A DNA stretch of 64,000 nt from Lachnospiraceae bacterium (GTDB lineage: Bacteria > Bacillota > Clostridia > Lachnospirales > Lachnospiraceae): positions 1 to 64,000 of the forward strand of contig JAFYCS010000003.1 in NCBI GenBank assembly GCA_017539565.1, given 5' to 3'. Positions within the stretch are counted from its first letter, which is position 1. The number at the start of each line of letters is the position of its first letter. This document shows positions 3,627 through 34,082 of this stretch, piece by piece. A model generated the notes under the pieces. It was not told the DNA's origin. It did not search any database and saw only the letters and a list, made by a program, of their open reading frames with translations. A program made the translations under genes and the position numbers.

Positions 3627-3661
3627 AGTGCCTTCTCCTTTCTTCTCCTCTTAAATGTCAA

Positions 3662-4201: not shown

Positions 4202-4219
4202 AAGAACCTCCTCTCCATA

Positions 4220-5854: not shown

Positions 5855-5869
5855 AGTCCTCCTTAACCT

Positions 5870-6778: not shown

Positions 6779-6802
6779 TCGATTCTCCTCCGTTTTGCAA
6801 CC

Positions 6803-6829
6803 ATACCCTCCCCTCATCGGGGAGGGTAT
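6803..6829 (-). promoter_or_regulatory. intergenic 11-pair hairpin between PilO- and PilV-like genes
   Basis: Perfect inverted repeat ATACCCTCCCC/GGGGAGGGTAT with a 5-base loop. There is no T-run on either side, so it is not a standard terminator. Its place between the assembly genes and the minor prepilins suggests an mRNA processing or stability element, or partial attenuation. Confidence 0.7.
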
Positions 6830-6851
6830 ATCAATCCTACCTTACCTTGCC

Positions 6852-10664: not shown

Positions 10665-13292
10665 ATGAACAAAGAATCGATCCCCTTCAAATTCAAAGAA
10701 AAACATTCACCATTATATGCCGCTTTTTTCACCGCCCTTATCTACATATTGATACTGCTTTTTTCCGGGATAGCCGGCTACGGGAACAATACCATTCTTT
10801 CCGGCGATCTTTATTCACAATATACAGCTTTTATACAGCTTTTTCTTGATACTATCAAACACGGCGGAAACTTTTATTACTCTTTTTCCCTGTTCCTTGG
10901 CAATCCGGCAGTTTCTACATATGCATATTATTGCTTAAGTCCTCTTAACCTGCTTTATCTTATTCCCTTTATATCAGTATCTTCAATGACCATAATAATC
11001 ATAATGTTAAAACTCTCTCTTGCTTCTGCCGCTTTCTGTTTATTCCAAAAGAGAGTCCTTAAACAGACCGGCCTGTTCCCGGTCCTTTTTGCAGTATGCT
11101 ATTCCCTTTGCAGCTTTACCATAACGATGCAGATCCATATCATGTGGCTCGATTCTTTATACATCTTACCGATCCTCATGATACTCATATACGGTTTCGT
11201 TAAAGGCGGCAGTTTTCTCCCTCTTGTCGCTGCCTACGCTTATCTCTTTATAAGCAATTTCTATATGGGATATATACTGGGCATTTTTTCCGGCTTGTGT
11301 TTCATCGTATTACTTATAATGAACATGGATGCCGTCAGCAAAACCGCCATCAGCCATCTTATAAAACGCGGTCTGCTTTTTATCCTGTCCGTCATACTTG
11401 CTGCAGGCTGCTGTGCGGCTGTTCTTATGCCCGCCGCATATGAACTTTTACAGCAGCGCGGATCCGGAGGTTCCGGTTTTTCTCTTGTTGATATCACACT
11501 TTTAGATGTGTTCAACAATATGTTCCTTGGGGAAATGCAGGGCATGGGCAGCCCCATCCCGCTTATCTACTGCGGACTCCCGGTCCTCCTCTTACTCCCG
11601 CTCTATGTTACATCAGCCGGGATAAAGACAAAAGAAAAACTGTGTGCGCTTTTCCTGCTTTTATTCTATCTGGCGGGATCACAGTTTCTTCCTATATATA
11701 GTTTTCTCCACGCAATGGAAGCTCCCAACTGGTATGCACACCGCTATGCTCCTTGTATCGTATTCATATTACTCTACATCGCTTCCCGCTCAGTTAAAGA
11801 GCTTGAGGGCTTTCCGTTAAAAAAACTCATAATATATTCTATATGTCTTTTGGGCTTTTACGCAGTCATGATCCCTTTGCAAAGCCTTATTTACAGTAAC
11901 TACGAAACAAACAGCCATGGTTTCTTTATTCTTACGGCATGCTTCTTTACAGCTTATATCTTATTACTTTACCTTCACAAAAAGGGCTGTGATAAAAAGC
12001 TTCTCAGCGCCGGCCTGAGCTTTATCCTTATGGCCGAACTGGTCATAAACGGTTTTACATGCATGCTGCGCAACAATTTCGGCTACGAACCCGAAGAAAC
12101 GGTTTCCGCGTGGGAAACCCCGCAAAAAAGCTTGATCCCCGAATTAAAAAATGCTGATACCGGCTTTTACCGTATAAGGACCGATAACGAAAGATGCTTC
12201 AATTCGCCCTCATATTTCGGCTATGCCGGTATAAACAGTTTTGCAAATGTCGACAATGTCAGATTACGGCAGGTTCTTTCATCACTCGGGATAGGCACAT
12301 CGTTTATGTGTATCTATGATCAGGGTTATACGGATATCACCGATATGCTCCTGGGTGTGAAATATTCGATCGATCTAAATACATCGGAAATAGCCGGTTC
12401 ACCGCTGGCTCTGCCCGTAGGATTTATGTGTCATCCGGCATTACTGAACTATGCCTCCACCGACAATGTATTTGATAACCAGCAGGCACTTATAAATGCC
12501 ATGACAGGTGAAACGCATAGCTTTTACACCCCGGTACCCGATTATGATATCGCAGAAAAGAATATGGAGGTAATGAGCTTCGATGACAGCATACTCTTTA
12601 AGCACATAAGCGACACGGTCATCAACGGAAAGCTCGATATTACCTTCCCCAATTACAAGGGTGCGCAGATCCTTGGATACTTTGCCCCGCTCTCCGAGCC
12701 CGTTATCAACTTAAGTGCTCCTGTGATAGAATGCACTAAAAGAGGCTATTACAAAAACGCCTCTTTAGCCGACGGATCGATAGTATGCGCATACACTAAC
12801 GATGACGGAGTACCTGAATTAGACCTGCTCTTTTCATCGGGAGCATACTACGACTATGCGATAAAAAATGCCAGATTCTGCTTATATGACAATTCACAAG
12901 TGGCTGATTCCGCTAAGGCCCTTGCTTCGCATCCGTTAGTGCTTTCGTCATGGACGGACGGCGAACTCAGCGGAACTGTTGAATCAACGGAAGAATCCCC
13001 TATACTGTTTACTTCCATCCCTTATGCAGAGGGCTGGACGGCTTATATAGACGGCAATCCGACACCGATCATTACAACCGTCGACGATGCATTTCTTTCA
13101 TTGTATATTGCTCCGGGAGTACATGATATACGTCTGGTCTACAACCATCCTTACGGATCTGCTTCGATCATTATCAGTTGCATATGCATTTGCGCATTTT
13201 TGCTTCTGATCCTGGTATCTAAGCGCAAGAAAAGCTCAGCAGCTCCGGAGGCCGGATCTTCCGATAAGGAGGATGGCAATGAAGAAGCATAA
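10665..13292 (+). CDS. YfhO-like GT-C membrane glycosyltransferase
   Basis: Polytopic protein of 875 residues: a dozen or so helices to about residue 465, an extracytoplasmic domain (~470-840), one last helix (SIIISCICICAFLLLILV) and a basic tail. The first outer loop holds GDLYSQY (residues 47-53), matching the acidic DLxxQY motif of the YfhO family. In Bacillus subtilis and Listeria, YfhO-type proteins move a sugar from undecaprenyl phosphate to lipoteichoic acid outside the membrane. Here the acceptor is unknown; the pilus genes on both sides make pilins or wall polymers candidates. AGG ribosome site; the last 14 bases overlap the next gene. Confidence 0.85.
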   Translation: MNKESIPFKFKEKHSPLYAAFFTALIYILILLFSGIAGYGNNTILSGDLYSQYTAFIQLFLDTIKHGGNFYYSFSLFLGNPAVSTYAYYCLSPLNLLYLIPFISVSSMTIIIIMLKLSLASAAFCLFQKRVLKQTGLFPVLFAVCYSLCSFTITMQIHIMWLDSLYILPILMILIYGFVKGGSFLPLVAAYAYLFISNFYMGYILGIFSGLCFIVLLIMNMDAVSKTAISHLIKRGLLFILSVILAAGCCAAVLMPAAYELLQQRGSGGSGFSLVDITLLDVFNNMFLGEMQGMGSPIPLIYCGLPVLLLLPLYVTSAGIKTKEKLCALFLLLFYLAGSQFLPIYSFLHAMEAPNWYAHRYAPCIVFILLYIASRSVKELEGFPLKKLIIYSICLLGFYAVMIPLQSLIYSNYETNSHGFFILTACFFTAYILLLYLHKKGCDKKLLSAGLSFILMAELVINGFTCMLRNNFGYEPEETVSAWETPQKSLIPELKNADTGFYRIRTDNERCFNSPSYFGYAGINSFANVDNVRLRQVLSSLGIGTSFMCIYDQGYTDITDMLLGVKYSIDLNTSEIAGSPLALPVGFMCHPALLNYASTDNVFDNQQALINAMTGETHSFYTPVPDYDIAEKNMEVMSFDDSILFKHISDTVINGKLDITFPNYKGAQILGYFAPLSEPVINLSAPVIECTKRGYYKNASLADGSIVCAYTNDDGVPELDLLFSSGAYYDYAIKNARFCLYDNSQVADSAKALASHPLVLSSWTDGELSGTVESTEESPILFTSIPYAEGWTAYIDGNPTPIITTVDDAFLSLYIAPGVHDIRLVYNHPYGSASIIISCICICAFLLLILVSKRKKSSAAPEAGSSDKEDGNEEA

Positions 13293-15882
13293 GATCCTGC
13301 CTTTTATCTCATTTATCCTGGCTCTGGCAGCGTTTCTGCTGTTCCTTGCTCTTTATAATGTACTTGGCTATGGTAACTATACTATATTGAGAGGGGATCT
13401 TTATGTTCAATACGTAGATTTTATAAAAATGTTTCTCCGCGTGCTGAAGGGAGAAGAGGATTTCTGGTACTCTTTTTCTATTTATTTAGGCTCGGGTACG
13501 ATACTGACCTATGCTTATTATGCGTTCAGCCCTTTTAATCTTCTTTATCTTATAGGATCTGTTTCGATCCCCGCTATGACAACTGTAATAATATGCCTCA
13601 AGGTTGCTTTATCCGCATTTACTTTTACGGTGTTTGCAAACAGGATCCTTAAGTGCAGCGATCACAAAGCAGTCTTTTTTTCATTGTGTTATGCTTTGAA
13701 CAGTTTCGCCATCACGCTGCATTTTAACCTCATCTGGCTGGATGCCGTCTATATGCTCCCGATCGTGATAATGCTGGTATTCATACTTATAGATGAAGGT
13801 GATTTCCTGCCGCTGGTCCCTGCCTGGGCTTACATGTTCATTACAAACTTTTATATGGCATATATCTGCGGTATATTTACAGCCATTGTTTTCTTCTTCC
13901 TGCTTATAGCGCGCAAGCAAACTTTCAGACAGAATTGTATGCATTTTATCAAATTTGCCGCAGGAGTATTCCTCGCCGTCTGCTGCAGCGCTGCGATACT
14001 GCTCCCCTGCGCATATTTTCTGATCTCACATATGGCGGCCGATAATGTTGAATTCACGCCTCTTCCCACAAATATTTTTGATCTGTTAAACAGCTTATTT
14101 ATCGGCAGCATGCCTAATATAGATAACCGCACACCTTTAATGTACTGCTCCATCCCTGTTCTGCTGCTGATACCTTATTACTTCACAAATAAGCTTATCC
14201 CGGCTAAGGAAAGGGTATTGACCGCACTTTTATTATTCATTTATATGCTGGCTATGGTATTTCTCCCTCTGTTCATAGTCATGCACGCTTTCGATTATCC
14301 GAATTATTATTTCTTCAGATACAGTTTCTGCGTAAGCTTCATACTTTGCTGTATGGCTTGCAGGAGCACATCCGTTTACGAAGAAAAACAGATCCCCAAA
14401 TGGATATGGTTATACGGCGGAGCGCTTATGGTATTTTATTCTTTTATGATAGTCTTCGCTCCTTTGTACACCCGCGCGGGGGATGTCACCAATTCCAAAG
14501 GACTGTTTGCACTAAACATCGCCGCTATAGTCATCTGGCTCACTCTGTTTCGTCTGAATACGCAGCTTGCAAAAAATATCCGCATTAAACGGATATCCGT
14601 CATAATATCCTTTATACTCATTATCACAGAGCTTGCCCTGAACGGGAAAATAAGCATGGATCACACAGGCCTGCTTCCTATAAGCGAAGAGGATTACAAT
14701 AACTGGTATACAGCTCAAAGCAGCGTTCTTTCAGAAATACCGGATGATGACAGAGATTTTTACCGCGTATCCATGTATGGTGATAATAATTATAATGCGC
14801 CATCTTTCTTTGGGTATGCGGGCTTCAATACTTTTTCTTCTTCCGATGACTACAACCTGCGTTCTGCCCTCTACGGCCTGGGCATTTCAGGTGCTAACCG
14901 CAGCATCACCGAAAACGGTTTTACAGACATAACCCGTATGCTCCTTGCTACCGGTTATATCGGGCGTATCAATTCAGTAAGTGATGAATCCACTGAAAGA
15001 AGTTCCTCACTCACTCCTTTCGCTTACCGTCTGCCGATCGCATATATGGTTTCCCCGTCTGTAAGAAGCTACACCCCGGACGACAGTCCTTTCGATAACC
15101 AGGAAAAACTGTGTGAACTCATGACCGGAACGCACCGCAGCTTTTTCGACCGGCTTAAGCTGTCGGATGTAAACTTAAGCAGTTATAATGCAACCATGTA
15201 CGAAATAGGCAACAATAACATCTTCCACAAGGGAACAGAATTTAAGGAAACCGGCGGGCTGTATTATACTATGCCCAAAGAAGAAAACAAAGAATTCATG
15301 ATCTGTTTCCGCCAATATACATCGACAGCCGATGTAAATGCCCCTTATGTATTGTGCGGAGAAGACTGCTTTGCTGTCACTCCGACCCTTTCAGAGGGCT
15401 GCATATTTACCGGCGGTTACCAAAACGGTTCTTTCGGAGAAAACACAGAGACTGTAGTTGTATATTTTAATGACGACAGGACAAATGATTATCCCTGTAC
15501 CAATATTTATCCCGCTTACTATAATAATGCGCAGACAGCCGATCTGTATAATGATCTGGATCAATATCCGTTTATTACCGATGATTGGCACGGCGGATAT
15601 ATCAGCGGTTCTGTAAAGGTTCCCGACAACAGAAGCGTATTATTTACTTCGATCCCTTATGATAAAGACTGGACGGCTACCGTCGACGGAAAAAATACAG
15701 AAATATCTCCGGTATTGGATAATGCTTTTATCGCGCTCGATCTTGATCCCGGCGAACACCATATCATTCTGGAATACCGGGCTCCCGGCAAAAAAACAGG
15801 TATGATAATAAGTGCCGGCGGCGCTGTGATCTTCATAGTTCTCTTACTCTTATATTTGAATAAGCGTAAAAAACATAATTAA
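13279..15882 (+). CDS. YfhO-like GT-C membrane glycosyltransferase, second copy
   Basis: Paralogue of the preceding protein with the same plan: helices to ~residue 455, GDLYVQY in the first outer loop (residues ~40-46), an extracytoplasmic domain with shared phrases (PSFFGYAGFNTFSS, DITRMLLA, LFTSIPY...DWTATVDG), and a C-terminal helix with a KRKK tail. ATG 13279 is chosen because AAGGAGG ends six bases before it; the earlier in-frame ATG 13273 touches the ribosome site. The gene begins inside the end of the first copy, so the two are translationally coupled and may form a pair. No terminator follows at once; a long structured 3' region does. Confidence 0.85.
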   Translation: MKKHKILPFISFILALAAFLLFLALYNVLGYGNYTILRGDLYVQYVDFIKMFLRVLKGEEDFWYSFSIYLGSGTILTYAYYAFSPFNLLYLIGSVSIPAMTTVIICLKVALSAFTFTVFANRILKCSDHKAVFFSLCYALNSFAITLHFNLIWLDAVYMLPIVIMLVFILIDEGDFLPLVPAWAYMFITNFYMAYICGIFTAIVFFFLLIARKQTFRQNCMHFIKFAAGVFLAVCCSAAILLPCAYFLISHMAADNVEFTPLPTNIFDLLNSLFIGSMPNIDNRTPLMYCSIPVLLLIPYYFTNKLIPAKERVLTALLLFIYMLAMVFLPLFIVMHAFDYPNYYFFRYSFCVSFILCCMACRSTSVYEEKQIPKWIWLYGGALMVFYSFMIVFAPLYTRAGDVTNSKGLFALNIAAIVIWLTLFRLNTQLAKNIRIKRISVIISFILIITELALNGKISMDHTGLLPISEEDYNNWYTAQSSVLSEIPDDDRDFYRVSMYGDNNYNAPSFFGYAGFNTFSSSDDYNLRSALYGLGISGANRSITENGFTDITRMLLATGYIGRINSVSDESTERSSSLTPFAYRLPIAYMVSPSVRSYTPDDSPFDNQEKLCELMTGTHRSFFDRLKLSDVNLSSYNATMYEIGNNNIFHKGTEFKETGGLYYTMPKEENKEFMICFRQYTSTADVNAPYVLCGEDCFAVTPTLSEGCIFTGGYQNGSFGENTETVVVYFNDDRTNDYPCTNIYPAYYNNAQTADLYNDLDQYPFITDDWHGGYISGSVKVPDNRSVLFTSIPYDKDWTATVDGKNTEISPVLDNAFIALDLDPGEHHIILEYRAPGKKTGMIISAGGAVIFIVLLLLYLNKRKKHN

Positions 15883-16106
15883 GATCTCATTCTGATGTAT
15901 CTTTCAGATGCAGTAATCTTGTGCCATCATGTTCCGATACCGTCTGGTGTCGGCCGGCACATATCGTATAACCCCCAGCTTATCCCTCAATATCCCCCCG
16001 CTATACGAATAATATTCGTTAGGGTACAACCATGATCCTGCGAATGATCACAGACATTCACAGACATAACCCGGCTATCATTGATCCATGGCAAGAGGAT
16101 TATCTG

Positions 16107-16150
16107 CAGCCGGCGTAAAACAGCTGTCTGTTCCTATGATGCAAAGGATT
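16107..16150. repeat. imperfect direct repeat, copy 1
   Basis: 44 bases beginning CAGCCGGCGTAAAACAG and ending TGCAAAGGATT. It matches copy 2 (16178-16219) over its full length with a few substitutions and two small deletions. Confidence 0.75.
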
Positions 16151-16177
16151 TCTCACGTAAGCGTATTTCTATACTTA

Positions 16178-16219
16178 CAGCCAGCGTAAAACACTGTCTG
16201 TTCCTTCAATGCAAGGATT
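16178..16219. repeat. imperfect direct repeat, copy 2
   Basis: 42 bases beginning CAGCCAGCGTAAAACAC and ending TGCAAGGATT; second copy of the repeat starting 71 bases upstream. The shared core is CTGTCTGTTCCT. Confidence 0.75.
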
Positions 16220-16297
16220 AATTCCTCGCGCATCGAGCTTAAAAGCAGGCTGTCGATTGCCTTCAGGCAACATATTCCTTTCGGCAGCCCTGTACAT

Positions 16298-16325
16298 AAA
16301 AAAAACCCGGCGCTTTCGCGCCGGG
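16298..16325 (-). terminator. major pilin terminator
   Basis: Stem CCCGGCGC/GCGCCGGG (16306-16313 with 16318-16325) closed by a TTTC (GAAA on the transcribed strand) tetraloop and followed on the minus strand by eight T. Textbook rho-independent terminator 20 bases after the pilin stop. Confidence 0.95.
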
Positions 16326-16345
16326 CCTCTTTAATTCGTTTTTAA

Positions 16346-16810
16346 TTACTGTACTACGATTGCGTAACCGCTGGGGCTCTTTGATCCTCTTGAGTCAGAA
16401 CCTGCTACCCAAACAGATACCTTGTTGTTACCAACGATCTGGAAAGAGATGTTAGTAGCGTTGGTGCTCTTAAGACGTGCATCTACTGCTGAACCAGCGG
16501 TCTCACCAAGGATCTCAAGTGCTGCAGAAGCGATGGGAGTAGAAGCGGTGTTAGTCAGAGTAGAAACGCCCTTAGCGCCTGACTGCAGAGTAGTGAACTC
16601 AGTGTTGTAAGCGCTGTTGTTAACAACTTCGGGATCCATCATAGCGGTAAGGATTGCTGTGTGAACACTGTCAGCTGCCTGGGTGTCTGCGGAAACCTTG
16701 CTCTTCTCAATGTACTTGATCAGCTGGGGTGCCATAACACCTACCAGGATTGCCATGATGGCAATAACGATGATCAGCTCAACCAGTGAAAAACCTTTGT
16801 TACTCTTCAT
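16346..16810 (-). CDS. pilA: major type IV pilin
   Basis: Structural subunit of the pilus. ATG 16810 is chosen: GGAGG is eight bases upstream and the product then begins MKSNKG/FSLVELIIVIAIMAILVGVMAPQL, a standard class III leader with Phe at +1 and Glu at +5. The mature protein is about 148 residues, the size of a compact Gram-positive type IVa pilin, with an Ala/Ser/Thr/Asn-rich globular part ending SPSGYAIVVQ. There are no cysteines. Ser/Thr-rich surface stretches (NTASTPIASAA, KSTNATN) could accept O-linked modification, but that is inference. It has its own promoter and terminator, as expected for the most abundant pilin, and lies after pilT-pilB-pilC and two membrane-enzyme genes. Confidence 0.95.
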   Translation of the reverse strand: MKSNKGFSLVELIIVIAIMAILVGVMAPQLIKYIEKSKVSADTQAADSVHTAILTAMMDPEVVNNSAYNTEFTTLQSGAKGVSTLTNTASTPIASAALEILGETAGSAVDARLKSTNATNISFQIVGNNKVSVWVAGSDSRGSKSPSGYAIVVQ

Positions 16811-16882
16811 TTCTTTTTCCTCCTTTTGGAATTTGATTTGTTTTTTCCGGAGCTCTTTTGCTCCCTGTTTGATTGTAAGCTC

Positions 16883-16910
16883 ATTATACACCGCTCATGT
16901 TTTATTACAA
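16883..16910 (-). promoter_or_regulatory. major pilin promoter
   Basis: Minus-strand TTGTAA (16905-16910), 16-base spacer, TATAAT (16883-16888). The leader of about 66 bases holds a GGAGC/GCTCC hairpin before the ribosome site. It separates pilin expression from the upstream operon. Confidence 0.75.
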
Positions 16911-16923
16911 GTCCGTTGATAAC

Positions 16924-19548
16924 CTATTTTTCATGGTTCATGTTTTTTTTGATCACCACATAAAATGACATAAAAATCATCAATATTATTCCTGCTGCAG
17001 ACAGTATCATTCCCCATTTCCGGCCGGGAACCACGTATTTCAGGCTTATCTCATGTTCCCCCGGAGCTAATCGCAAGGCCATGAAACAACTGTCGATCAC
17101 AGGTATAACCTCAAGAGGATCGCCGTCTGCATAGACTTTCCAGCCTTTATCATAGGGTATGCTCATAAACAAAAGCGGTCTTTCCTGTGTTGCACTTACC
17201 GATGCTTTTATATATGTTTCATCCCACTCTGCGGTACTCCACGCCCCCTGCGACAGTGTTTTATAAGCTTTTTCAATCGCATCTTCCTCCTGATAATAAA
17301 AGTATTGATCCATATAATCAAAGCTCTTATCAGGATCTTCATAATCTGCAAGGCTTATAACAAAAGCGTTTCCGTCCCGGCTCATCTCCATGATGGAATT
17401 ATCTATGACCGCATTAAAATGGCTTGTATCGCCCTTTCTGTCATCCACGGAAAACAGCGCTATCTCCGTTGCCATCTTCAGTCCCGTGATAGTTTCTGTT
17501 TTATCTCCCATATACGGAAATACATTAAAAAACGCGTATGCATGGCGGTATCCGGCTTCAGGAATGCCAAAAAGCAGATCTCCGCTCTGTCCGGGATAAA
17601 GATTACGTATACTGTATCCGTTGTCATACTGCTGATATGTCAGCATATTCTCCTCATATCCGAACACATCGGCTCTTGTATACGCTCTTACTTCTTCGCC
17701 GCACATGGCACTTACCACAGCGTTCTGATATTCAAACGGATCACCGTTATACGCTATATCCTCAAGCAGATCCTCCGAACACATATATCCCAAAGGCAGC
17801 GCATATTCATAGCTTTCAAACACGCCCCCATCATCTCCCTGCGTATCATTAAGCTGTCCCCTGTAGCGCACCCCCAGCAGCATATCGCTCAGATCGGTCG
17901 CTCCGGCCTGGGAATAAAGCACTTCATCGGCACGATCCCCCATTTTCTTCATAAACCTGTTTACCGCAGAATAATTTGATGAGGCAAACTGTCCGATGCC
18001 CATATATCCATACCTGGCATTCTGATTATTCCCGGGATATGCTGCCGCAAAAGCCCTGTACACTTCTTTATCGGAACGCCTTGCCTCATCACAGCGGGCT
18101 TTAAAGAGCTCCATCTGGCTTTCCATTTTCCTGATCCACGCTCCTTCCAAAAGCCCCTGTTCTTTAACATTTAAATACGCCTGTCCGCCCAGTTCTATAA
18201 ATATCAGGGCATAAGCCAGAAGCGTTGCGTTTTTGTCATTAGCGGCAGCAAAGATCATATAAAATACTGCCCCCCACAGAGGGATCAGGATCAGATTAGA
18301 AAGCAGTGCGATCCCCACACCTTTGCCGTCTGCATATTCTCCCATATTATCATGAAAAAGTATAACGGATAAGGCTGTAAGCAGTACTATAACGATCAAC
18401 AGGATAAACCTGGATCTGTTCTCTTTTTTTATCTCTATCCGGCAGCTTATCAGACATCTTGCCGAAATGACCAACATCAGAAAAACATACAAAAACGCAT
18501 ATCTTACAGTAAAACCGTCAGGTCTGTTAAATGCATGCAGAAAGAAATATACGGGATCAGCATACAGACTGACAAACAATCCGGCCAACGCCGCCCCCAT
18601 TATGATACGTTCCTTTTTTCCAGCTTTAGGCGTCATGAAATACAGCGGAAGAAGGATAAGCACCGGCAATCCGCAATAAAGAAACGGGATGTCCGTCTTC
18701 AGTGAAGTAGGCCGCGCATGACACATACTGTAAAACACTTCAAAAAGATGTATCTTTTCATGTACCATAACCGTATCGTATCCCAGCGAATCCCTGAAAA
18801 AAGCGAGCGCCGGCAGCAATACACACATACTCATCAACACCGCACACACCACACTCAAAAAATAGCTGACTATCAGTTTTACATTCGCCGAAATAAATCT
18901 TTTTCCGTCTCTTAAATACAGGATGACAAGCAATGATACCGCCGAAAACAAACCTATAAGGAAACCGCAGTAGAACTGTATGATAAAGCTAAGCGCATAT
19001 GCTATGGCCAGTCCGGTAAAGCGTCCTTTTTTGATAAAGATCATCAGAAAAGTCATTACTAACGGCAGCAGATAAAGCCCATCCATAAGATTTGATGAAA
19101 GCATATATTCCAGCTGGAAACCGCAGAATGCGTAACAAAGCGAAAAAAGACAGGTCCATTTACTCTTCCATTCCATCCCGCACAGGATAAACATATGGAA
19201 CAGAGCTGCCGTAAGCCCTATCCTCAGCACTATCCCGACCATTGTTGCCGTATAAACATCCGGAATGATGATATATAAAAGAGTCATGGGACTGTATGCA
19301 CAGAATGCGAATAACAGCGCCGTATTCTGCCCCAGAGAAGTATCCCAGGAATAAAAGATGTTTTTACCGTTCCTGATCTTATCCGCTAAAAGCGCAGATA
19401 TTGATGCCATCTGATCCATTGTATCAGTGTTCCAGGCAACAGCTCCGCCGCCAAGAAGACCGCAAAGAGCGAAGGCCGTCAGGGCGAGAAATACCGCAAA
19501 AATAAAACTCAGCGCTATCCCCCACTTACCCTCTAACGCCCGGGTCAT
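16924..19548 (-). CDS. YfhO-like GT-C membrane glycosyltransferase, third copy
   Basis: Third YfhO-type protein, 874 residues from ATG 19548, whose ATGA overlaps the stop of the fusion gene upstream; an in-frame ATG at 19575 with GGAG nearby is possible. It has the same layout as the two rightward copies: helices to ~residue 460, an acidic motif in the first loop (TDTMDQM, ~residue 47), the phrases YGYMGIGQFASSNY and DLSDMLLGVRYRG, then PLLFMSIPYDKGWKVYADG and a final helix. It is more diverged than the other two are from each other. It is coupled to the YidC-like/sulfatase gene and sits immediately before the pilin, so pilin or envelope glycosylation is a fair guess. Confidence 0.84.
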   Translation of the reverse strand: MTRALEGKWGIALSFIFAVFLALTAFALCGLLGGGAVAWNTDTMDQMASISALLADKIRNGKNIFYSWDTSLGQNTALLFAFCAYSPMTLLYIIIPDVYTATMVGIVLRIGLTAALFHMFILCGMEWKSKWTCLFSLCYAFCGFQLEYMLSSNLMDGLYLLPLVMTFLMIFIKKGRFTGLAIAYALSFIIQFYCGFLIGLFSAVSLLVILYLRDGKRFISANVKLIVSYFLSVVCAVLMSMCVLLPALAFFRDSLGYDTVMVHEKIHLFEVFYSMCHARPTSLKTDIPFLYCGLPVLILLPLYFMTPKAGKKERIIMGAALAGLFVSLYADPVYFFLHAFNRPDGFTVRYAFLYVFLMLVISARCLISCRIEIKKENRSRFILLIVIVLLTALSVILFHDNMGEYADGKGVGIALLSNLILIPLWGAVFYMIFAAANDKNATLLAYALIFIELGGQAYLNVKEQGLLEGAWIRKMESQMELFKARCDEARRSDKEVYRAFAAAYPGNNQNARYGYMGIGQFASSNYSAVNRFMKKMGDRADEVLYSQAGATDLSDMLLGVRYRGQLNDTQGDDGGVFESYEYALPLGYMCSEDLLEDIAYNGDPFEYQNAVVSAMCGEEVRAYTRADVFGYEENMLTYQQYDNGYSIRNLYPGQSGDLLFGIPEAGYRHAYAFFNVFPYMGDKTETITGLKMATEIALFSVDDRKGDTSHFNAVIDNSIMEMSRDGNAFVISLADYEDPDKSFDYMDQYFYYQEEDAIEKAYKTLSQGAWSTAEWDETYIKASVSATQERPLLFMSIPYDKGWKVYADGDPLEVIPVIDSCFMALRLAPGEHEISLKYVVPGRKWGMILSAAGIILMIFMSFYVVIKKNMNHEK

Positions 19549-22289
19549 CTGCTCGTTTCGCCTCTTTCCTTCCATATGCTCCAATTATCCTCATCAAAAA
19601 TACTGTCATGCACCGAATACCACGGAGCATCGGATGTATCAAATACATGCTTATCCATAGGGATATAATCTACTCCGTCATGTCCGAAGGTTGCCGTAAC
19701 ATGCAATACGCCCTGTTTTTCGCTGTTTTCTATCACCTTACCGGTAAACGGGTTGACCGGCTCATCAACCACGCCTTCCAGCGCAAGTATCGGAACATCC
19801 GCATCCGTCATAAACTCGTCGCTTACACTCCATCCCGTCGCCCCAAAATCTTTTACCATCAGCAACGGGTTAAATAATGTCAGATCAAGGCTTCCGTTAA
19901 ACATCTGAAAATCCTCAAACTGTTTCAGATCCGCTCCGTGGTCGGAAACCAGTATTATCCTGGTATTATCATATACTCCCTGATCCCTGAGGTAATCAAA
20001 ATAATCAGCCAGCTTAAGCATTGCCGCCATATCGATCTTATAATGCATTTCCTGATAAGTCGTTGTAAATACCAGGCTTTCACCTTTATCGTTTATGCGC
20101 GACATTCCCATGTACTCTGAATTATCCACTACTGCAACCGGAACATAATCCGGAAGCTGCAGATCCGCCAGTTCGTGTGTGGTATTGTTCGCCATAATGA
20201 TTGCTTTTCCGCGTCCGTCATCCGTGATCTGTGTTATCTCGGGCATCTTTTCGAGCACTTTATACGGCGCTGTAAATGAAGGATATACATCATGTTCCCT
20301 GCCCATAACCGACTGATAGTTTCCTCTGTCATAAAGCTGTCTTGAAAAGCATGACGGCATAACATCAAAAACACTGTAAAGAACGAACATCCTGCCCTGC
20401 AGGACCTGTCTTATCTTTTCGTTTATGTCATCATTTCCGAAACGTCCTTCCAGATATATTCCCTGAACATTTTCATATCTGTCAAAAATACTCATATCTG
20501 AGGGAATGGTATATCCGGCAAATGGCAGATCGGCCACGACAACATCCATATCATTCCGGCCAAAAAGAACCGGCATGACTGACAATGCTTCATTTTGTTT
20601 ATCGACCAGCAATTCATCATCCCTCTCGTTTATATGCTCCGGTATATATTCATACCCTCCGAATAAAGGTCCGGATGCATACAGCGTTTTAAATGCAAAT
20701 GAAAGACAGTCCGGATAATAGGTAAAGCCGTCAAATGCCTGTTTCAGTTCCGGCTTTTCCTCAAAGATCCAGGGCATATATGAGGATATCGCACGATCGA
20801 GCATGATCACGATAACATTTTTCTCATTTCTATCAAGTGAAAGAAGCTTATCGTCTTCTTCCGGATCTGTCCGCTTCTCTTCCGCCAGTTTATTTTCAGC
20901 CGAATCAAATTCCGCTCTGATCCTGACAAAATTATACACAGACATTACAAGTGCTGCCACCAGTACGATATTTACACAGCCTCTCATAATACCCGGCAGA
21001 TACTTTAAAAGCATTAATACCACAGCCGCGACTACCGCCACTATAGCCAGGTTTAAGATAACCGCCTGCGCCGAAGGCATGGGCTCGATATCAAATACCA
21101 GATATTTGTTGATCATTCCGTATCTGCCGGAATTCAAGAAATGGTCGGCCACAAAGATAAAAAGGATCATCGTTCCCAGTGCATAGATGCTTTTTCTTTT
21201 TTCTCCGGCAAAGGCAAATATCACACTTCCCCAGAATATAAATAAACCGGAATAAATAAGTATGCATTGTACACAATAACCCAGGGCATCTGTATCCTCA
21301 AAGACACTGACAAAATCCCAGGGGGCTGCCCCGATCACTCCCAGCGGAATGAACATTCCCATAAATACGGCAAGTGCCGCCAAAAGAGGCAGGATCTGCT
21401 TCATCCCCGGCTGCTGTTTTACAAAAAGATCACCAAAACTGAAATCTGTCTTTTTGATAAGAAGGCTGCCAAGATATATGATCAGCGGAGAACATACCAG
21501 CAGCAGATAATTATTATATCCGGTCAGCCAGTCGCTCTTCTCCAGCGCTATTGCGTCATGGTAGATATATAATATCGGCAGCATGCTGAGACATGCCGTT
21601 ATAAACAGTTTTTTATTCTGGATATGATTTTTATACAAGTTCTTACCCAGAGAGAACAGATTGTTAAGTATCCAGTATAATACCAGGCCCGACGGGCTGT
21701 GATAAAGCAGGATCAGGAAAACTATGGCAACTGCATACGGCTGGATAAGTTTTTTAAACTTTCCGGGTCCCTTTTCATACGCAAAAGCCGAAATGAAATT
21801 AATAAGCGTCATCAGTATAGGCAAAAGATTGATCCTTGCGTTTCCTATCGCCAAAAGGCCATCCTCCGTGGCCAGATCGCTTATCATCCACGCTCCCACT
21901 CGCTGCAGTATACGCAGGGATGAGATATAATTATATGCCGCCATAAAAAAGGGGATCTGCAGGAGCAGTGACAAAGAACCTCTTAATGCCATGATCGGAT
22001 GATAGTTTTTCAAGCGGTAATAACGCTGAAGTATCATGCTCCTCTCATCACCGGTAAAGCTCTTTTGGATATGCTGCTTCCAGGCAGCCATTTCATCCTG
22101 CCTTTTTTTCTCCTCGGCTGCCTGTTTTTCGGCAACATTATATAAAGGCAGTGTAAGCACATTAACAGCAGCACTTAAAACGACAAGTGTTATAACTGCC
22201 TCACTGAACACCTCATATGTACGATATGTGATAATGTCCATCAGATACTCGATGGGCATTATTATCAGATTATAAAGAAATGAACCCAT
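19545..22289 (-). CDS. YidC/Oxa1-like domain fused to a sulfatase/LtaS-like domain
   Basis: A 914-residue membrane protein. Residues ~25-220 match the YidC/Oxa1 fold (FSEAVITLVVLSAAVNVLTL, later LLQIPFFMAAYNYI and SPSGLVLYWILNNLFSL). The groove Arg that precedes the PL motif in insertases is Asn here, so insertase activity is doubtful. Residues ~230-470 add further helices. From ~488 an alkaline-phosphatase-superfamily domain runs outside the membrane: NVIVIMLDRA (first metal Asp) and LVSDHGADL (~781, Asp-His metal site). A Thr in AFKTLYASG could be the nucleophile, as in LtaS and phosphoethanolamine transferases. Likely a phospho-group transferase or hydrolase acting on a surface polymer or protein; the substrate is unknown. 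It lies between pilC and a YfhO-like gene. Confidence 0.82.
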   Translation of the reverse strand: MGSFLYNLIIMPIEYLMDIITYRTYEVFSEAVITLVVLSAAVNVLTLPLYNVAEKQAAEEKKRQDEMAAWKQHIQKSFTGDERSMILQRYYRLKNYHPIMALRGSLSLLLQIPFFMAAYNYISSLRILQRVGAWMISDLATEDGLLAIGNARINLLPILMTLINFISAFAYEKGPGKFKKLIQPYAVAIVFLILLYHSPSGLVLYWILNNLFSLGKNLYKNHIQNKKLFITACLSMLPILYIYHDAIALEKSDWLTGYNNYLLLVCSPLIIYLGSLLIKKTDFSFGDLFVKQQPGMKQILPLLAALAVFMGMFIPLGVIGAAPWDFVSVFEDTDALGYCVQCILIYSGLFIFWGSVIFAFAGEKRKSIYALGTMILFIFVADHFLNSGRYGMINKYLVFDIEPMPSAQAVILNLAIVAVVAAVVLMLLKYLPGIMRGCVNIVLVAALVMSVYNFVRIRAEFDSAENKLAEEKRTDPEEDDKLLSLDRNEKNVIVIMLDRAISSYMPWIFEEKPELKQAFDGFTYYPDCLSFAFKTLYASGPLFGGYEYIPEHINERDDELLVDKQNEALSVMPVLFGRNDMDVVVADLPFAGYTIPSDMSIFDRYENVQGIYLEGRFGNDDINEKIRQVLQGRMFVLYSVFDVMPSCFSRQLYDRGNYQSVMGREHDVYPSFTAPYKVLEKMPEITQITDDGRGKAIIMANNTTHELADLQLPDYVPVAVVDNSEYMGMSRINDKGESLVFTTTYQEMHYKIDMAAMLKLADYFDYLRDQGVYDNTRIILVSDHGADLKQFEDFQMFNGSLDLTLFNPLLMVKDFGATGWSVSDEFMTDADVPILALEGVVDEPVNPFTGKVIENSEKQGVLHVTATFGHDGVDYIPMDKHVFDTSDAPWYSVHDSIFDEDNWSIWKERGETSR

Positions 22290-22311
22290 TATTACCCTGC
22301 GTAAATCTTAA

Positions 22312-22343
22312 GAGGACGACCCCGGCAAAGCAGGATCGTCCTC
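22312..22343 (-). promoter_or_regulatory. intergenic 11-pair hairpin after pilC
   Basis: Arms 22312-22322 and 22333-22343 pair over 11 positions on the minus strand (one G-U) around a 10-base loop. It is followed only by TTAAGATTT, so termination would be partial. It could set the ratio between pilus-machine and downstream membrane-enzyme expression. Confidence 0.65.
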
Positions 22344-22366
22344 ATAATCATCCTTCTGTGTATTGT

Positions 22367-23578
22367 TTATGACAATGCATCGTACAGTGTGAACATAGGG
22401 CTTAATATTGCCAATACCAGGAAACCGACTACAACTGCCATAACAACTATGATAGCAGGTTCCAGAATTGTCATCATCTGCTCTGTTGCCAGCTGAACAT
22501 CGTCCTCATAATAGTTTGCAACGTTCTCGAGCATCGCCTCGATATTACCTGTTTCCTCACCGATTGCCACCATATGAACGACCATGGCCGGGAACAGACC
22601 GCAGCTCTGAAGAGGTCTTGACAGAGGCACACCACGGAGCACCTGATCCTTTGCTTCCTTCATTGCTCTCTTATAAAGCATATTCTCCATGGAACGTCCT
22701 GTGATCTCAATAGCATCGACCATGGGAACACCGGCTCCAAGAAGTGTACAAAGTGTACGGCCCAGTCTTGCACAGGCACTCTTGGTCTTAACGGGTCCCA
22801 GAACAGGAATCTTAAGTGCAAGTGCTGAGGTAACTTCTTTTCCTGCATCCGTTGAAGCATAGGCTTTAAAGCCGAATATCAGACCGACTATCAATATAAG
22901 CAACAGCCACCACCAGGCGACGAAGAAGTCGGAAATATGTATGACCGCCATCGTGAGAGCAGGCATTTCAACATCCAGATCGGCAAACATGTTCATGAAT
23001 GAAGGTATAACCTTTACCATGACGATAAAGATAACACCGATCATAACAACTATCAGTATGATAGGATAGGTAACAGCCTTCTTAACAGCCTGTTCCAGAG
23101 CCGCTTCCTTTTCGAACTGTATAGCCATACGTTCGAAGGATTTTTCAAGCGAACCTGAAGCTTCACCGGCTTCAACCATGTTGTTAAGCATTTCAGGGAA
23201 AACACCGCCCTGCTTTCTCATGGAGTTTGCCAGAGTCTCACCTTTTGATATATCCTGATGAACCGCCTTTATAGCAGCACACAGTGCAGGGTTTTCTGTC
23301 TGATCCCCCAGCATCTCAAAGCTGTCAACAACAGGCACACCGGCCGCATTGATCGAATGGAACTGATGACAGAACAATGCAAAATCTCGGGGTGATATTT
23401 TCTTACCCTTGCTGAGGAAATCTATCGGAGTATGAACACCGATCGCTTCCTCACAGCTTACAACCACATTCTTATCCTGTTTGAGCATGGTCATAGCGGC
23501 ATCTCTGGTCTTTGCCTCCAGTATGCCCTTCTTTTCTTTTCCTGCCGGGGTTATGACCCGGTATGCAAATTGCGCCAT
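22367..23578 (-). CDS. pilC: type IV pilus platform protein PilC
   Basis: Polytopic inner-membrane protein of the T2SF family that couples the PilB and PilT motors to pilin insertion and removal. 403 residues with the two repeated cytoplasmic four-helix domains: the first around DFALFCHQFHSINAAGVPVVDSFEM (residues ~65-90), the second around ACARLGRTLCTLLGAGVPMVDAIEI (~265-290), each followed by a GEETGN/GEASGS-type turn and membrane helices. Full length with no missing part. ATG 23578 has AAGGGAG upstream. It follows pilB by 55 bases and belongs to the pilT-pilB-pilC operon. Confidence 0.97.
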   Translation of the reverse strand: MAQFAYRVITPAGKEKKGILEAKTRDAAMTMLKQDKNVVVSCEEAIGVHTPIDFLSKGKKISPRDFALFCHQFHSINAAGVPVVDSFEMLGDQTENPALCAAIKAVHQDISKGETLANSMRKQGGVFPEMLNNMVEAGEASGSLEKSFERMAIQFEKEAALEQAVKKAVTYPIILIVVMIGVIFIVMVKVIPSFMNMFADLDVEMPALTMAVIHISDFFVAWWWLLLILIVGLIFGFKAYASTDAGKEVTSALALKIPVLGPVKTKSACARLGRTLCTLLGAGVPMVDAIEITGRSMENMLYKRAMKEAKDQVLRGVPLSRPLQSCGLFPAMVVHMVAIGEETGNIEAMLENVANYYEDDVQLATEQMMTILEPAIIVVMAVVVGFLVLAILSPMFTLYDALS

Positions 23579-23633
23579 ATTCTCCCTTTCCTTTCTTTAA
23601 TCTAAATCCGTTGACCGCAACGGAAATATCTCA

Positions 23634-25394
23634 TTATGCATAAATAGATGAGGCATCTTCTTCCTCAAGGGTACTGGTATTTGCGGCAGTCTGGGCATCC
23701 ATATCATAAGCCACACGTACCATCTCTGCTATTGATGTAATGCCCTCCACCACATTTCTGGCGCCTGCCATACGCAGGGTATTCATACCTTCAGCAACCG
23801 CAGCCTCCTCTATCTTCTCGGCTGTAACGGTTTCGTGAAGCACACGTCGGATAGACGCGCTTATAGGCATTATCTCATAGATAGCTTTTCGTCCTTTATA
23901 GCCGTTACCGCACTTCTCACATCCTCCGGGTTCATATACCGTAAGGGGCTGCTCCTGCGGCCAGTCAAGAAGGATCTTCTCCTGCTTCGTTGCCTCATGT
24001 CCCACCTTGCATTCCGGGCAAAGACGGCGGACAAGACGCTGAGCTATGATACCTACGACTGCATCACCTATCATGTAAGGCTCAACGCCCATATCTATAA
24101 GACGGGTAACTGATGCGGATGTAGAGTTGGTATGCAATGTACTGATAACCAGGTGACCGGTGATAGACGCCTGGACAGCTATCTGCGCGGTCTCACCGTC
24201 ACGGATCTCACCTATCATGATAATATCGGGGTCCTGACGCAGAATAGAACGCAGTGCAGATGCAAAGGTAAGTCCCGCTTTGACATTTACCTGCACCTGA
24301 TTGATGCCGGCGATATTTGCCTCCACAGGGTCCTCAACAGTTATTATATTAACATCCGGCTTATTAAGCTCATTCAGAACGGTATAACAGGTTGTTGACT
24401 TACCGGAACCGGTAGGTCCGGTAACAAGGATTATACCGTGAGGGTTATTCATGATACCATCCAGACGCGCCTCATCATCAGGATAAAGACCAAGGAATTT
24501 CTTCTCCTGGGTAAGTCCCTGCTTCTTTGTGAGTCGCATGACGGTCTTCTCTCCGTATACGGTAGGAAGGATAGAAACACGGACGTCGAACTCCACGCCA
24601 TCAACGATGTATGTGAGTCGGCCGTCCTGAGGCTTTCTTTTTTCGGAAATATCCAGACCGGATATGATCTTGATACGTGCGGTCATAGCTGCCAGCATGG
24701 CAGGTGCATATTCTGCATCCAGCTGAAGCATACCATCCACACGGCTTCTGATACGAAGACTCTTCTCCATCGGCTCGATATGGATATCGGATGCCCCCTC
24801 ACGAACGCTCTGCTGTATCATACTGCGCACGATCTTAACGATAGGTGCTTCACCAACGCTATCTTCCTCATCCTTATCGTCCTCTTCACCGAATTCGGCT
24901 TTGTGCTGCTCAAGGAATTCATCGGCAGCCTCCATGGTACTGCGCTTACCATATATCTTATCCAGCTGTATCGCAAGTTCCGTCTGAGGTGAATAATGAG
25001 GGATAACTTCCATGCCGGATGCCATCTCGATATCGTCTATGATACTGAGGTTATTAGGCTCCGCCATAGCCACATGGATCGCATTTATATTATCGGGATC
25101 AAAGGCATAAGGCAGTATCTGATGCTTACGTACCAGATCATCGCCTACTACTTCGACAGCTTTGGGATCAAAATGCTTAAGGTCCTCCGCACTGGCGGTG
25201 GGGATTCCCATCGTATTACTAAAGAAATTACTGAAGCTCTCGGATGTCATCAACCCCATAGATATGAGGGTCTCACCTAGCCTTGCCTTTGTGTTCTGCT
25301 GTTCAACCAGAGCAAGTTCCAGCTTATCCTGAGTCAGCAGTCCCGCTTCGACAAGCTGCTCACCTAATCTTTTTTTAGCACCAAATAATGCCAT
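23634..25394 (-). CDS. pilB: pilus extension ATPase PilB
   Basis: Hexameric secretion-superfamily ATPase that powers pilin addition. 586 residues: an N-terminal GspE/PilB domain (RLGEQLVEAGLLTQDKLELA), then the motor core with Walker A GPTGSGKSTT (Lys332), the Asp box and Walker B DIIMIGEIRDGETA, the His box TGHLVISTLHTN, and a tetracysteine zinc site (CPEC and CEKC). Everything expected of an active PilB is present. AGGAGG stands eight bases before ATG 25394. An acidic insert (GEEDDKDEEDS) joins the two domains. Placed between pilT and pilC with short gaps. Confidence 0.97.
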   Translation of the reverse strand: MALFGAKKRLGEQLVEAGLLTQDKLELALVEQQNTKARLGETLISMGLMTSESFSNFFSNTMGIPTASAEDLKHFDPKAVEVVGDDLVRKHQILPYAFDPDNINAIHVAMAEPNNLSIIDDIEMASGMEVIPHYSPQTELAIQLDKIYGKRSTMEAADEFLEQHKAEFGEEDDKDEEDSVGEAPIVKIVRSMIQQSVREGASDIHIEPMEKSLRIRSRVDGMLQLDAEYAPAMLAAMTARIKIISGLDISEKRKPQDGRLTYIVDGVEFDVRVSILPTVYGEKTVMRLTKKQGLTQEKKFLGLYPDDEARLDGIMNNPHGIILVTGPTGSGKSTTCYTVLNELNKPDVNIITVEDPVEANIAGINQVQVNVKAGLTFASALRSILRQDPDIIMIGEIRDGETAQIAVQASITGHLVISTLHTNSTSASVTRLIDMGVEPYMIGDAVVGIIAQRLVRRLCPECKVGHEATKQEKILLDWPQEQPLTVYEPGGCEKCGNGYKGRKAIYEIMPISASIRRVLHETVTAEKIEEAAVAEGMNTLRMAGARNVVEGITSIAEMVRVAYDMDAQTAANTSTLEEEDASSIYA

Positions 25395-25445
25395 TCAACC
25401 GTCCTCCTGCACCATTAGCCTGTTTAGATCGAATAAAAAGACCGT

Positions 25446-26507
25446 TTACTTTAACTTCTGTGCCATACCGTCGGGATCGACCGCATACTGTACTGCCATA
25501 TCCCTGGTGATCTTTCCTTCCTGGAAGAGCTGCGTCAGTGACGCATCCATACTGATCATACCCAGTTTAGCATTGGTCTGCATAACGGAAAGCAGCTGAT
25601 GTGACTTACCTTCACGGATAAGCGCACGTACTGCAGAGTTTGCGATCATAACTTCGAAAGCGGCGCAACGTCCCATACCGTCTGCAGTAGGGATCAGCTG
25701 CTGGGAGATAACGGCTTCAAGCACGTTAGCCAGCTGTACACGGATCTGCTGCTGCTGATGGGGCGGGAATACGTCGATGATACGGTCGACGGTAGATGCC
25801 GCACCGATGGTATGCAGTGTGGAAAGCACCAAGTGACCGGTTTCTGCTGCGGTTACCGCAACTGATATTGTCTCAAAGTCACGCATCTCACCGACGAGGA
25901 TAACATCGGGATCCTCACGGAGGGCTGCACGAAGTGCATTTGCATATGTCATGGAATCAAAACCTATCTCACGCTGATTGACCATTGAAGTCTTGTGAAG
26001 ATGCAGATACTCGATAGGGTCCTCAAGTGTAATGATATGAGCATCTCTGTGCTCATTGATCATGTTGATGATAGATGCAAGAGAGGTTGACTTACCGGAA
26101 CCGGTAGGTCCTGTAACCAATATAAGTCCTCTCTTTCTGGTATATAATTCAACGAATGCCTCAGGCAGACCCAGCTGTTCGGGGTTAGGCACCACGGTAT
26201 TAACGGTTCGCATAGCCATGGCAACCGATCCACGCTGGCGGAATGCATTAACACGGTAACGTCCGATAGGATCCACTGCAAAGGACATATCCAGCTCACC
26301 CTTGCTGTTGAAGATCTCACGCTGATGGTCAGTCGTAATAGACAAAAGAATCTCAAGAGTATCATCCGCGGTCATGACCGGGAACTGTTCCATACGCACC
26401 AAGTGGCCGTTCACACGCATCATGGGCGGAAGCGAAACGGTCAGATGGATATCGGAGGCTTTCGCCTGCTGCGCCACCAAAAGTACATCGTTGATTCTGA
26501 TAGACAT
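25446..26507 (-). CDS. pilT: pilus retraction ATPase PilT
   Basis: Hexameric motor that disassembles the pilus and drives twitching motility and DNA or surface pull-in. 353 residues, the typical PilT length. It starts in PilT fashion (LVAQQAKASDIHLTV) and has Walker A GPTGSGKSTS (Lys139), Walker B DVILVGEMRDFETI, the His box ETGHLVLSTLHT and the PilT-specific C-terminal region with a MISMDASL helix in place of AIRNLIRE-type tails. No zinc motif, which separates it from PilB. It leads the operon, so a retractable, probably motile pilus is expected. Confidence 0.97.
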   Translation of the reverse strand: MSIRINDVLLVAQQAKASDIHLTVSLPPMMRVNGHLVRMEQFPVMTADDTLEILLSITTDHQREIFNSKGELDMSFAVDPIGRYRVNAFRQRGSVAMAMRTVNTVVPNPEQLGLPEAFVELYTRKRGLILVTGPTGSGKSTSLASIINMINEHRDAHIITLEDPIEYLHLHKTSMVNQREIGFDSMTYANALRAALREDPDVILVGEMRDFETISVAVTAAETGHLVLSTLHTIGAASTVDRIIDVFPPHQQQQIRVQLANVLEAVISQQLIPTADGMGRCAAFEVMIANSAVRALIREGKSHQLLSVMQTNAKLGMISMDASLTQLFQEGKITRDMAVQYAVDPDGMAQKLK

Positions 26508-30682: not shown

Positions 30683-30733
30683 GAACATTCCTCCTTTTTA
30701 TTCTCGTGAACCGGTGTACAAAAAAACAACAGC

Positions 30734-34072: not shown

Positions 34073-34082
34073 GATATCCTGA

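Follow-up and report, generated by a model that had tools for sequence, protein, structure and literature searches.

Why should four large membrane enzymes be threaded through the genes of a type IV pilus? The question is raised by a stretch of 64,000 nucleotides of a Lachnospiraceae bacterium (contig JAFYCS010000003.1, positions 1 to 64,000; hereafter the window), in which three YfhO-like proteins, predicted glycosyltransferases of the GT-C type and here called YfhO-A, YfhO-B and YfhO-C, and a membrane protein that joins a YidC-like to a sulfatase-fold domain (the fusion) lie inside the pilus locus. Open reading frames and profile matches confirmed both this location and the coordinates given in the initial annotation. 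The evidence described below points, with a probability that we put at roughly 0.6, to the three YfhO proteins being part of a pilus-associated, genus-specific branch of their family, whose members would perform the predicted last step of a three-component glycosylation of the pilin outside the membrane. The genes on which the argument turns are the following:

10665..13292, plus strand: YfhO-A, predicted GT-C glycosyltransferase of 875 amino acids (PF09586, 442 bits)
13273..15882, plus strand: YfhO-B, predicted GT-C glycosyltransferase of 869 amino acids (PF09586, 434 bits), overlapping the YfhO-A gene by 20 nucleotides
16298..16325, minus strand: terminator-like hairpin and T run, 3' of the pilin gene; the hairpin was predicted at 16306-16325 and listed on the plus strand, the T run was read from the sequence on the minus strand
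16346..16810, minus strand: major type IV pilin of 154 amino acids, MKSNKGFSLVELI..., starting at position 16810, with a class III leader (PF07963, 33.6 bits on a longer open reading frame)
16924..19584, minus strand: YfhO-C, predicted GT-C glycosyltransferase of 886 amino acids from a TTG start, 883 in the database copy (PF09586, 332 bits); its gene overlaps that of the fusion and comes before the pilin gene
19545..22289, minus strand: YidC-like/sulfatase-fold membrane fusion of 914 amino acids (PF02096; structure model and fold search)
22367..23578, minus strand: pilC (T2SSF, profile match)
23634..25394, minus strand: pilB (T2SSE and MshEN, profile match)
25446..26507, minus strand: pilT (T2SSE, profile match)

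The three YfhO proteins match PF09586 along nearly the whole profile, at scores far above the cut-off of 28.5 bits, and the family is viewed as one of GT-C enzymes drawing their sugars from undecaprenyl phosphate outside the membrane (PMC5836110, PMC8035078). An aspartate of the first outer loop, Asp54 in YfhO-C, was invariant in 24 of 24 aligned YfhO proteins, the three window proteins included, and in YfhO-A it stands in the motif SGDLYSQY. Among the NCBIfam models, PgfM1 and PgfM2 were the best for all three proteins (for YfhO-C, PgfM2 and then PgfM1), in every case below the cut-off: the best PgfM1 score was 185.7 against 1400 and the best PgfM2 score 155.4 against 1500, so that the equivalog cut-offs were missed. 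A sequence search of solved structures with the YfhO proteins gave no match at E 1.

The link between YfhO genes and the pilus in this genus is real. The genome set comprised the own assembly (G000, 3.37 Mb, 99.75% complete), 34 congeners (G001-G034) and 25 more distant genomes. In the 31 genus genomes with an orthologous pilT, the own one included, and with YfhO fragments merged, 71 of the 125 YfhO genes among the matches listed lie within 20 kb of pilT, where 1.62 were expected, and at least one YfhO is found there in 25 of the 31. Of the six YfhO genes in the own genome (nine PF09586 matches, in part fragments of a single gene), three are inside the window, and the number expected within 20 kb of pilT is 0.06 (five of the six genes counted). 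On the pilT-centred stretches of congeners, selected without regard to YfhO or the fusion, YfhO was present in 24 of 30; the stretches lacking it were those of G007, G010, G025, G027, G032 and G033, of which the ones from G025 and G033 are shorter than 6 kb, and in G007, G010 and G032 the pilin is found on another contig with YfhO adjoining. The refuting condition named in the initial annotation, homologous genes lying mostly away from pilus genes, was thus not borne out for YfhO in the genus. The comparison stretches were devoid of YfhO: it was absent from all ten examined (eight from other families and two with other pilT types of the genus), and from the 12 other-genus pilT stretches (12 of the 17 loci nearest by pilT score), most of which share a lepA-hemW-pilT and/or a pilT-comM-dprA backbone.

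The association is closest at the pilin itself. A YfhO gene is the immediate neighbour of 23 of the 24 major-pilin genes counted (23 genomes), the exception, in G001, lying at a contig end; two edge-cut pilin-like genes, whose complete forms are those of G004 and G028, were excluded from this count. Since some stretches had been chosen because they hold YfhO or the fusion, this figure is inflated, as is the presence of YfhO on pil stretches in 29 of 32 genus genomes. Free of such a choice are the 12 complete major-pilin genes from the window and from stretches chosen by pilT position alone (G000, G002, G011, G013, G014, G015, G017, G019, G020, G023, G029 and G031), and YfhO adjoins the pilin in 12 of 12. 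The arrangement varies: YfhO may follow pilC and stand upstream of the pilin, may come after pilC and pilin, or may form a cassette of its own with the pilin.

When 140 YfhO proteins (only those of at least 750 amino acids, from the stretches collected for analysis) were placed in a midpoint-rooted tree, one clade of 90, with support 1.0, was made up of proteins from this genus only, and all 68 of the 68 pilus-linked YfhO of the genus fall inside it. The remaining 50 proteins are all 37 from other genera, six of them pilus-linked, and 13 unlinked copies from the genus. YfhO-A belongs to a group of 16 sequences (15 genomes), YfhO-B to its sister group of 22 sequences (20 genomes), and YfhO-C lies elsewhere within the genus clade. 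The D-x3-Q pattern, stricter than the aspartate itself, is present in 72 of the 90 clade members and in 42 of the 50 other YfhO in the tree, and a few members of the clade, among the sequences listed, are without the first-loop aspartate. Such a tree would be expected of a family that had expanded to serve the pilus locus.

Beyond the genus, a link between YfhO and pili is suggestive. Judged by eye among the matches listed, a YfhO and a pilT are no more than 20 kb apart in four genomes of other genera (G488, G484, G426 and G379), and in G435 the distance is somewhat greater than 20 kb; G426 also carries GT2 genes upstream of pilB, and G484 has a GT2 gene, but its pilT stands alone. In G057 a YfhO adjoins a PilC-like gene and none is on its two pilT stretches. 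An order-wide search found a pil gene on one of 28 short loci (L256). Of the 37 YfhO from other genera in the tree, six have a pil gene no further than 15 kb away, several having been chosen for that, and none of them falls in the genus clade.

How would such a branch act? A GT2 enzyme resembling GtrB, ArnC or PgfS would charge undecaprenyl phosphate with one sugar on the inner side of the membrane, a small flippase (of the SMR type, ArnE-like in one operon tested) would turn the lipid-sugar outward, and YfhO, as a GT-C type enzyme with its first-outer-loop aspartate, would move the sugar onto a membrane-held pilin or minor pilin, before or during assembly. Each YfhO paralogue, and each neighbouring GT-C protein, would add one residue. 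The initial annotation had noted that the window holds no CsbB-like charging enzyme, and this stands: a GT2 from a congener's pil operon, used to search the own genome, gave five near-full-length matches, all candidates for the charging step and all outside 1-64000, the best of them (46% identical, contig C117) away from pili and one, on C2, near a YfhO of the other clade. The enzyme type missed in the window does occur on pil stretches of congeners, GT2 proteins of the undecaprenyl-phosphate-sugar synthase (ArnC) or Dpm1 type being found in 12 of 32 genus genomes. Five of those 12 also carry small SMR-type transporters, paired in four (SMR2 in five, SMR1 in four). The ArnC-type pil-operon GT2s of G008 and G013 matched PgfS best and then ArnC, below curated cut-offs (best PgfS score 219.7, the equivalog cut-off of 500 being missed); the shorter GT2 of G018 best matched a dolichyl-phosphate hexose transferase, again below the curated cut-off, and the SMR pair of G008 best matched ArnE, at 30.6 and 23.7 bits against a cut-off of 92. 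In G013 an uninterrupted run of genes comprises the SMR pair, the GT2, an NAD-dependent epimerase, an ATP-grasp protein, the pilin and two YfhO.

The pilin is proposed as the acceptor on account of the gene position and because YfhO stays linked to the pilus in six congeners (G005, G011, G015, G017, G019 and G020) in which the pilus locus holds YfhO and a search at E 1e-60 gave no fusion. Two further observations point weakly the same way, namely a Ser+Thr content of 25.9% in 22 genus pilins against 19.4% in 11 pilins from other genera (p 0.0024, in a comparison that ignores phylogeny) and a correlation between YfhO-B and pilin distances beyond that of PilC (partial r 0.47, p 0.0005, n 17). 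The acceptor may alternatively be a minor pilin or a wall polymer.

Several points weigh against this proposal. For YfhO-A the correlation with pilin distance is marginal (p 0.054), YfhO-C shows none (p 0.37), and the congeners are non-independent samples. Among the 90 clade members are 22 with no pil gene adjoining on the stretches analysed, several of them at lepA or GT-C loci. G025 has pilT-pilB-pilC on a 3.8 kb contig and no YfhO at E 1e-20 in its assembly, G033 (67% complete) is without a YfhO match, and the four YfhO genes of G027 are on the pilT contig at a distance of about 40-55 kb. Two complete pilin-like genes of 180 amino acids, at the end of the prepilin operon in G004 and G028, have no YfhO neighbour. 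A flippase was not identified for the own genome, in which no genome-wide SMR search was made. Finally, neither a modified pilin nor a sugar or enzyme activity is known from these bacteria, and the YfhO proteins whose acceptor is given in the sources cited modify lipoteichoic acid (LTA) or wall teichoic acid (WTA) (PMC5836110, PMC8035078).

The choice between pilin and polymer calls for a look at the genes around the core of the locus:

1854..7730, minus strand: rest of the pilus operon, including prepilin-like proteins at 1854-3626 (PF07963 match), 3662-4201 (PF07963 below its cut-off) and 5870-6817 (ComGE/GspI-like matches below cut-off)
7730..9637, minus strand: pilM (PF11104; TIGR01175 below cut-off)
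9747..10448, minus strand: pilD prepilin peptidase (PF01478)
26623..28173, minus strand: BCCT transporter, of the betaine/carnitine/choline family (PF02028)
28191..28913, minus strand: nucleotidyltransferase (PF12804, PF00483), labelled LicC-like from context only
28910..30688, minus strand: LicA-like three-part fusion of a winged helix, a nucleotidyltransferase and a choline-kinase-like domain (PF13412, PF12804, PF01633, PF01636)
30734..31957, minus strand: CDP-glycerol:glycerophosphotransferase-like protein (PF04464), whose relatives are the usual partner of the fusion family
31964..34135, minus strand: GT-C-fold membrane protein with an N-terminal domain like a carbohydrate-binding module (CBM) (structure model; no Pfam family at E 0.001)
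34083..36122, minus strand: paralogue of the preceding protein, 24% identical, sharing the invariant columns of alignment A3
36123..39081, minus strand: hemW-like gene (36123-37283) and lepA (37273-39081), pilT neighbours in many other-genus loci

The minus strand accordingly reads lepA, the hemW-like gene, the two GT-C-type proteins, the PF04464 protein, the LicA-like and LicC-like genes, the BCCT transporter, pilT, pilB, pilC, the fusion, YfhO-C, the major pilin and the hairpin, and the plus-strand genes of YfhO-A and YfhO-B stand between the pilin and the minus-strand pilD, pilM and prepilin genes. No LicC model was among the 25 NCBIfam matches listed for the product of 28191..28913. The GT-C protein of 31964-34135 was considered as a relative of YfhO and set aside, the profile comparison giving a probability of only 16.5; its GT-C fold comes from the model. 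Neither of the tandem membrane proteins of 31964-36122 has a Pfam match, and in the genus their family is met repeatedly next to pilT and lepA. In G031 (L149, 14400-15476) the place of the window's LicA-like and BCCT genes is occupied by a class V aminotransferase, encoded beside the LicC-like gene in the orientation of the pil genes, which suggests another head group.

Further features of the locus are noted for completeness. In many congeners pilT and pilB are separated by the competence genes comM and dprA, which are found on pil stretches of 17 of 32 (comM) and 16 of 32 (dprA) genus genomes; in the own genome they are on the same contig as pilT (C63, at about 65.6-68.3 kb), some 40 kb from it. 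In G007 (L147, 2867-8077) two proteins that by eye look like recombinases stand between DprA-like and ComM-like pieces after pilT. Position 39247-43545 of the window encodes a BspA-type leucine-rich-repeat protein of 1432 amino acids with List_Bact_rpt and Big_2 domains. No Rfam family was found at gathering scores in 1-40000, and promoter-like sites (55, with 39.5 expected) were not used as evidence.

The fusion has a different distribution. Its PF02096 (YidC) match covers residues 33-220 (78.9 bits, cut-off 35), TIGR03592 reached 71 against a cut-off of 84.3, and residues 7-218 match YidC structures by profile, the best five E-values ranging from 2.7e-11 to 9.7e-10. The groove arginine of YidC is a positively charged functional residue; in the profile consensus of the fusion an asparagine is aligned to it, and position 43 is N, S or Q in 20 of 20 proteins. 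Residues ~488-914 are modelled with a sulfatase/alkaline-phosphatase-type fold (mean pLDDT 81.9). Foldseek against the PDB gave low whole-chain TM-scores, and the sulfatase fold was assigned in a further fold search; the YidC part, which rests on profiles, is not among the structural matches listed, these being filled by the sulfatase domain. PF00884 was not reported for the window fusion at E 0.001 and is precomputed for many relatives. D498, T535, H705, D783 and H784 are kept in 20 of 20 aligned fusions, and we take T535 to be the nucleophile and the others the metal ligands, as in LtaS. The fusion shares with LtaS, EptA and PptA the sulfatase-type fold, the threonine at the nucleophile position and the metal-ligand positions, and differs from them in its N-terminal YidC-like domain with Asn, Ser or Gln at the groove-arginine position and in its PF04464-type partner.

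A search for the family returned 2276 proteins at E 0.001, with PF02096 on all 120 of those listed. In a wider collection of loci, of which the best-scoring 77 of 584 were analysed, a PF04464-type gene was present in 59 of 77, within 300 bp of a fusion and on the same strand in 57, whereas LicA/LicC-type genes were found in 18, at least two fusions in 30, a pil gene in five and a YfhO in one. The genus genomes have 0 to 15 fusion matches each; 13 of the 92 fusion pieces among the matches listed lie within 20 kb of pilT, where 1.17 were expected, six of them in G031 (second fragments of split matches and genomes without an orthologous pilT being excluded from this count), and in 5 of 32 genus genomes the pil stretches carry a fusion. 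The fusion is therefore enriched near pili in a few species, and what the initial annotation named as refuting, homologous genes mostly away from pilus genes, largely applies to it. The annotation's proposal of one dedicated pathway of four enzymes could not be upheld, because the loci of the fusion are mostly away from pili and from YfhO. A place in the core of the pilus system was rejected for the fusion in view of its usual PF04464-type partner and of the six congeners that keep the YfhO-pilus link with no fusion match. Its core role most likely lies elsewhere, with a phospho-polymer of the envelope, since it is found mostly away from pili and beside a PF04464-type gene; it would probably stand outside the glycosylation line and serve such a polymer together with the CDP-glycerol-phosphotransferase-like protein.

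Some observations on the YidC-like proteins of these genomes may be added. The PF02096 search of the own genome found the fusion and no separate housekeeping YidC, owing to an assembly gap or to real absence; a separate YidC is listed in a frame of 439-501 amino acids in 11 of the 22 genus genomes searched, the own one included. Open frames of about 1200-1400 amino acids in G003, G006, G009, G010 and G018 show a second architecture that contains YidC. At L016, L044, L075 and L078 a PilT-like gene stands beside a PF04464-type gene or a fusion, with no pilB or pilC match on the stretch.

That the YfhO proteins of the pilus locus glycosylate a teichoic-acid-like polymer of the wall or membrane traversed by the pilus, instead of the pilin, appears rather unlikely to us. 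It would agree with the LTA or WTA acceptors of known YfhO (PMC5836110, PMC8035078), with the PF04464, LicC-like and CBM-like GT-C genes contiguous with pilT in the window and in G031, with the prepilin operon being followed by a PF04464-type gene and a fusion in G004 and G028, and with the occurrence on pil stretches of 18 of 32 genomes of GT-C proteins of the o3196 family, the window member of which has a CBM-like domain. It is at odds with the six congeners that keep YfhO at the pilus with no fusion match, with the presence of PF04464-type and LicC-like genes on pil stretches of only 2 of 32 genomes each (the stretches of G004 and G028 excluded), and with the near absence of YfhO from fusion/PF04464 loci elsewhere (1 of 77). 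Distinctly improbable, in our view, is that the hemW-pilT and pilin surroundings are simply a spot tolerant of insertions, its enzymes functionally unrelated to the pilus: gene order and strand do differ widely among congeners, and other genera keep the lepA-hemW-pilT and pilT-comM-dprA backbone while other genes come and go, but a single clade takes in every pilus-linked YfhO of the genus, the 13 genus copies outside it are all unlinked, and YfhO stays beside the pilin through the varied arrangements.

The fusion itself might act on the pilus, as a PptA-like transferase of phospho-forms to the pilin with its YidC-like part holding the membrane-bound pilin. The order pilC-fusion-YfhO-pilin in the window and in G031, the fusion directly preceding the pilin in G029, the sulfatase-type fold with its threonine and metal-ligand positions, and the choline-type genes that precede pilT in the window would all suit such an enzyme; we regard it as improbable nonetheless, as most loci of the family that were examined adjoin a PF04464-type gene and not pili, and the fusion reaches the pil stretches of so few genus genomes. 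An extended proposal, unlikely as a whole, is that the pilus serves as a glycan scaffold, the three YfhO and two CBM-bearing GT-C proteins of the window, as a set dedicated to the pilus, building a chain one sugar at a time on the pilin outside the membrane and the fusion, its YidC-like part holding the pilin, adding phosphocholine or phosphoglycerol supplied through the adjoining choline-type genes in some species, among them the present one. If true, this would bring Lic-type donor genes together with a transferase of the PptA type, and for such a pairing the available part of PMC10434233 gives no evidence in the species surveyed.

A pilin-glycosylating YfhO branch, by comparison, would have parallels in known systems. 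In the Pgf system of Streptococcus mutans (PgfS, PgfM1, PgfE and PgfM2), PgfS, PgfM1 and PgfM2 are needed for the modification of surface proteins, and the gene of a surface protein adjoins the system, cnm and pgfS being co-transcribed (PMC5856776). PgfM1 and PgfM2 are the best NCBIfam matches of the window YfhO, PgfS is the best one for both ArnC-type GT2s tested from pil operons, G013 has an epimerase, and its gene run parallels the cnm-pgfS-pgfM1-pgfE-pgfM2 layout (PMC5856776). Differences lie in the scores, all far below equivalog cut-offs, in the type IV pilin as the neighbouring protein, in the additional SMR pair of some congeners and in the multiplication of YfhO paralogues. The CsbB-GtcA-YfhO systems of Bacillus, Listeria and Staphylococcus share with the window a GT-C protein of the same Pfam family and, for the charging step, the GT-A enzyme class (PMC8035078); their known acceptors are LTA and WTA and their flippase is of the GtrA type, where some congeners have SMR/ArnE-like proteins, and no pilus link is described for them in the available part of PMC8035078.

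The nearest functional parallel, by analogy, would be the TfpO/TfpW cassettes of Pseudomonas, in which a glycosyltransferase gene adjoins the major pilin gene and a terminator follows the pilin gene (PMC11841053). A glycosyltransferase gene adjoining the pilin is the trait found here in 23 of 24 cases, and in 12 of 12 with the window and the pilT-chosen stretches; TfpW is a GT-C enzyme (PMC5836110). Pseudomonas is a diderm, unlike the organism studied here, and YfhO-C of the window is upstream of the pilin and not after its terminator. Among the monoderms, the rumen species Ruminococcus albus has a type IV pilin, GP25, which is described as a glycoprotein of 25 kDa (PMC3796261); it is another species, and the glycosylating enzyme is not named in the available part of that source.

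The glycosylation of pilins is well worked out in Gram-negative bacteria (PMC11841053). For the type IV pili of monoderms, no pilin-glycosylating enzyme was found in the open-licence literature, as far as its texts were available, and the sole co-mention of YfhO and type IV pili found there is a comparison of GtlB with TfpW. The pilus-linked YfhO branch offers concrete genes with which the glycosylation of monoderm pilins can be tested and, if the proposed function is true, an enzyme family of teichoic acids would have been recruited to a type IV filament.

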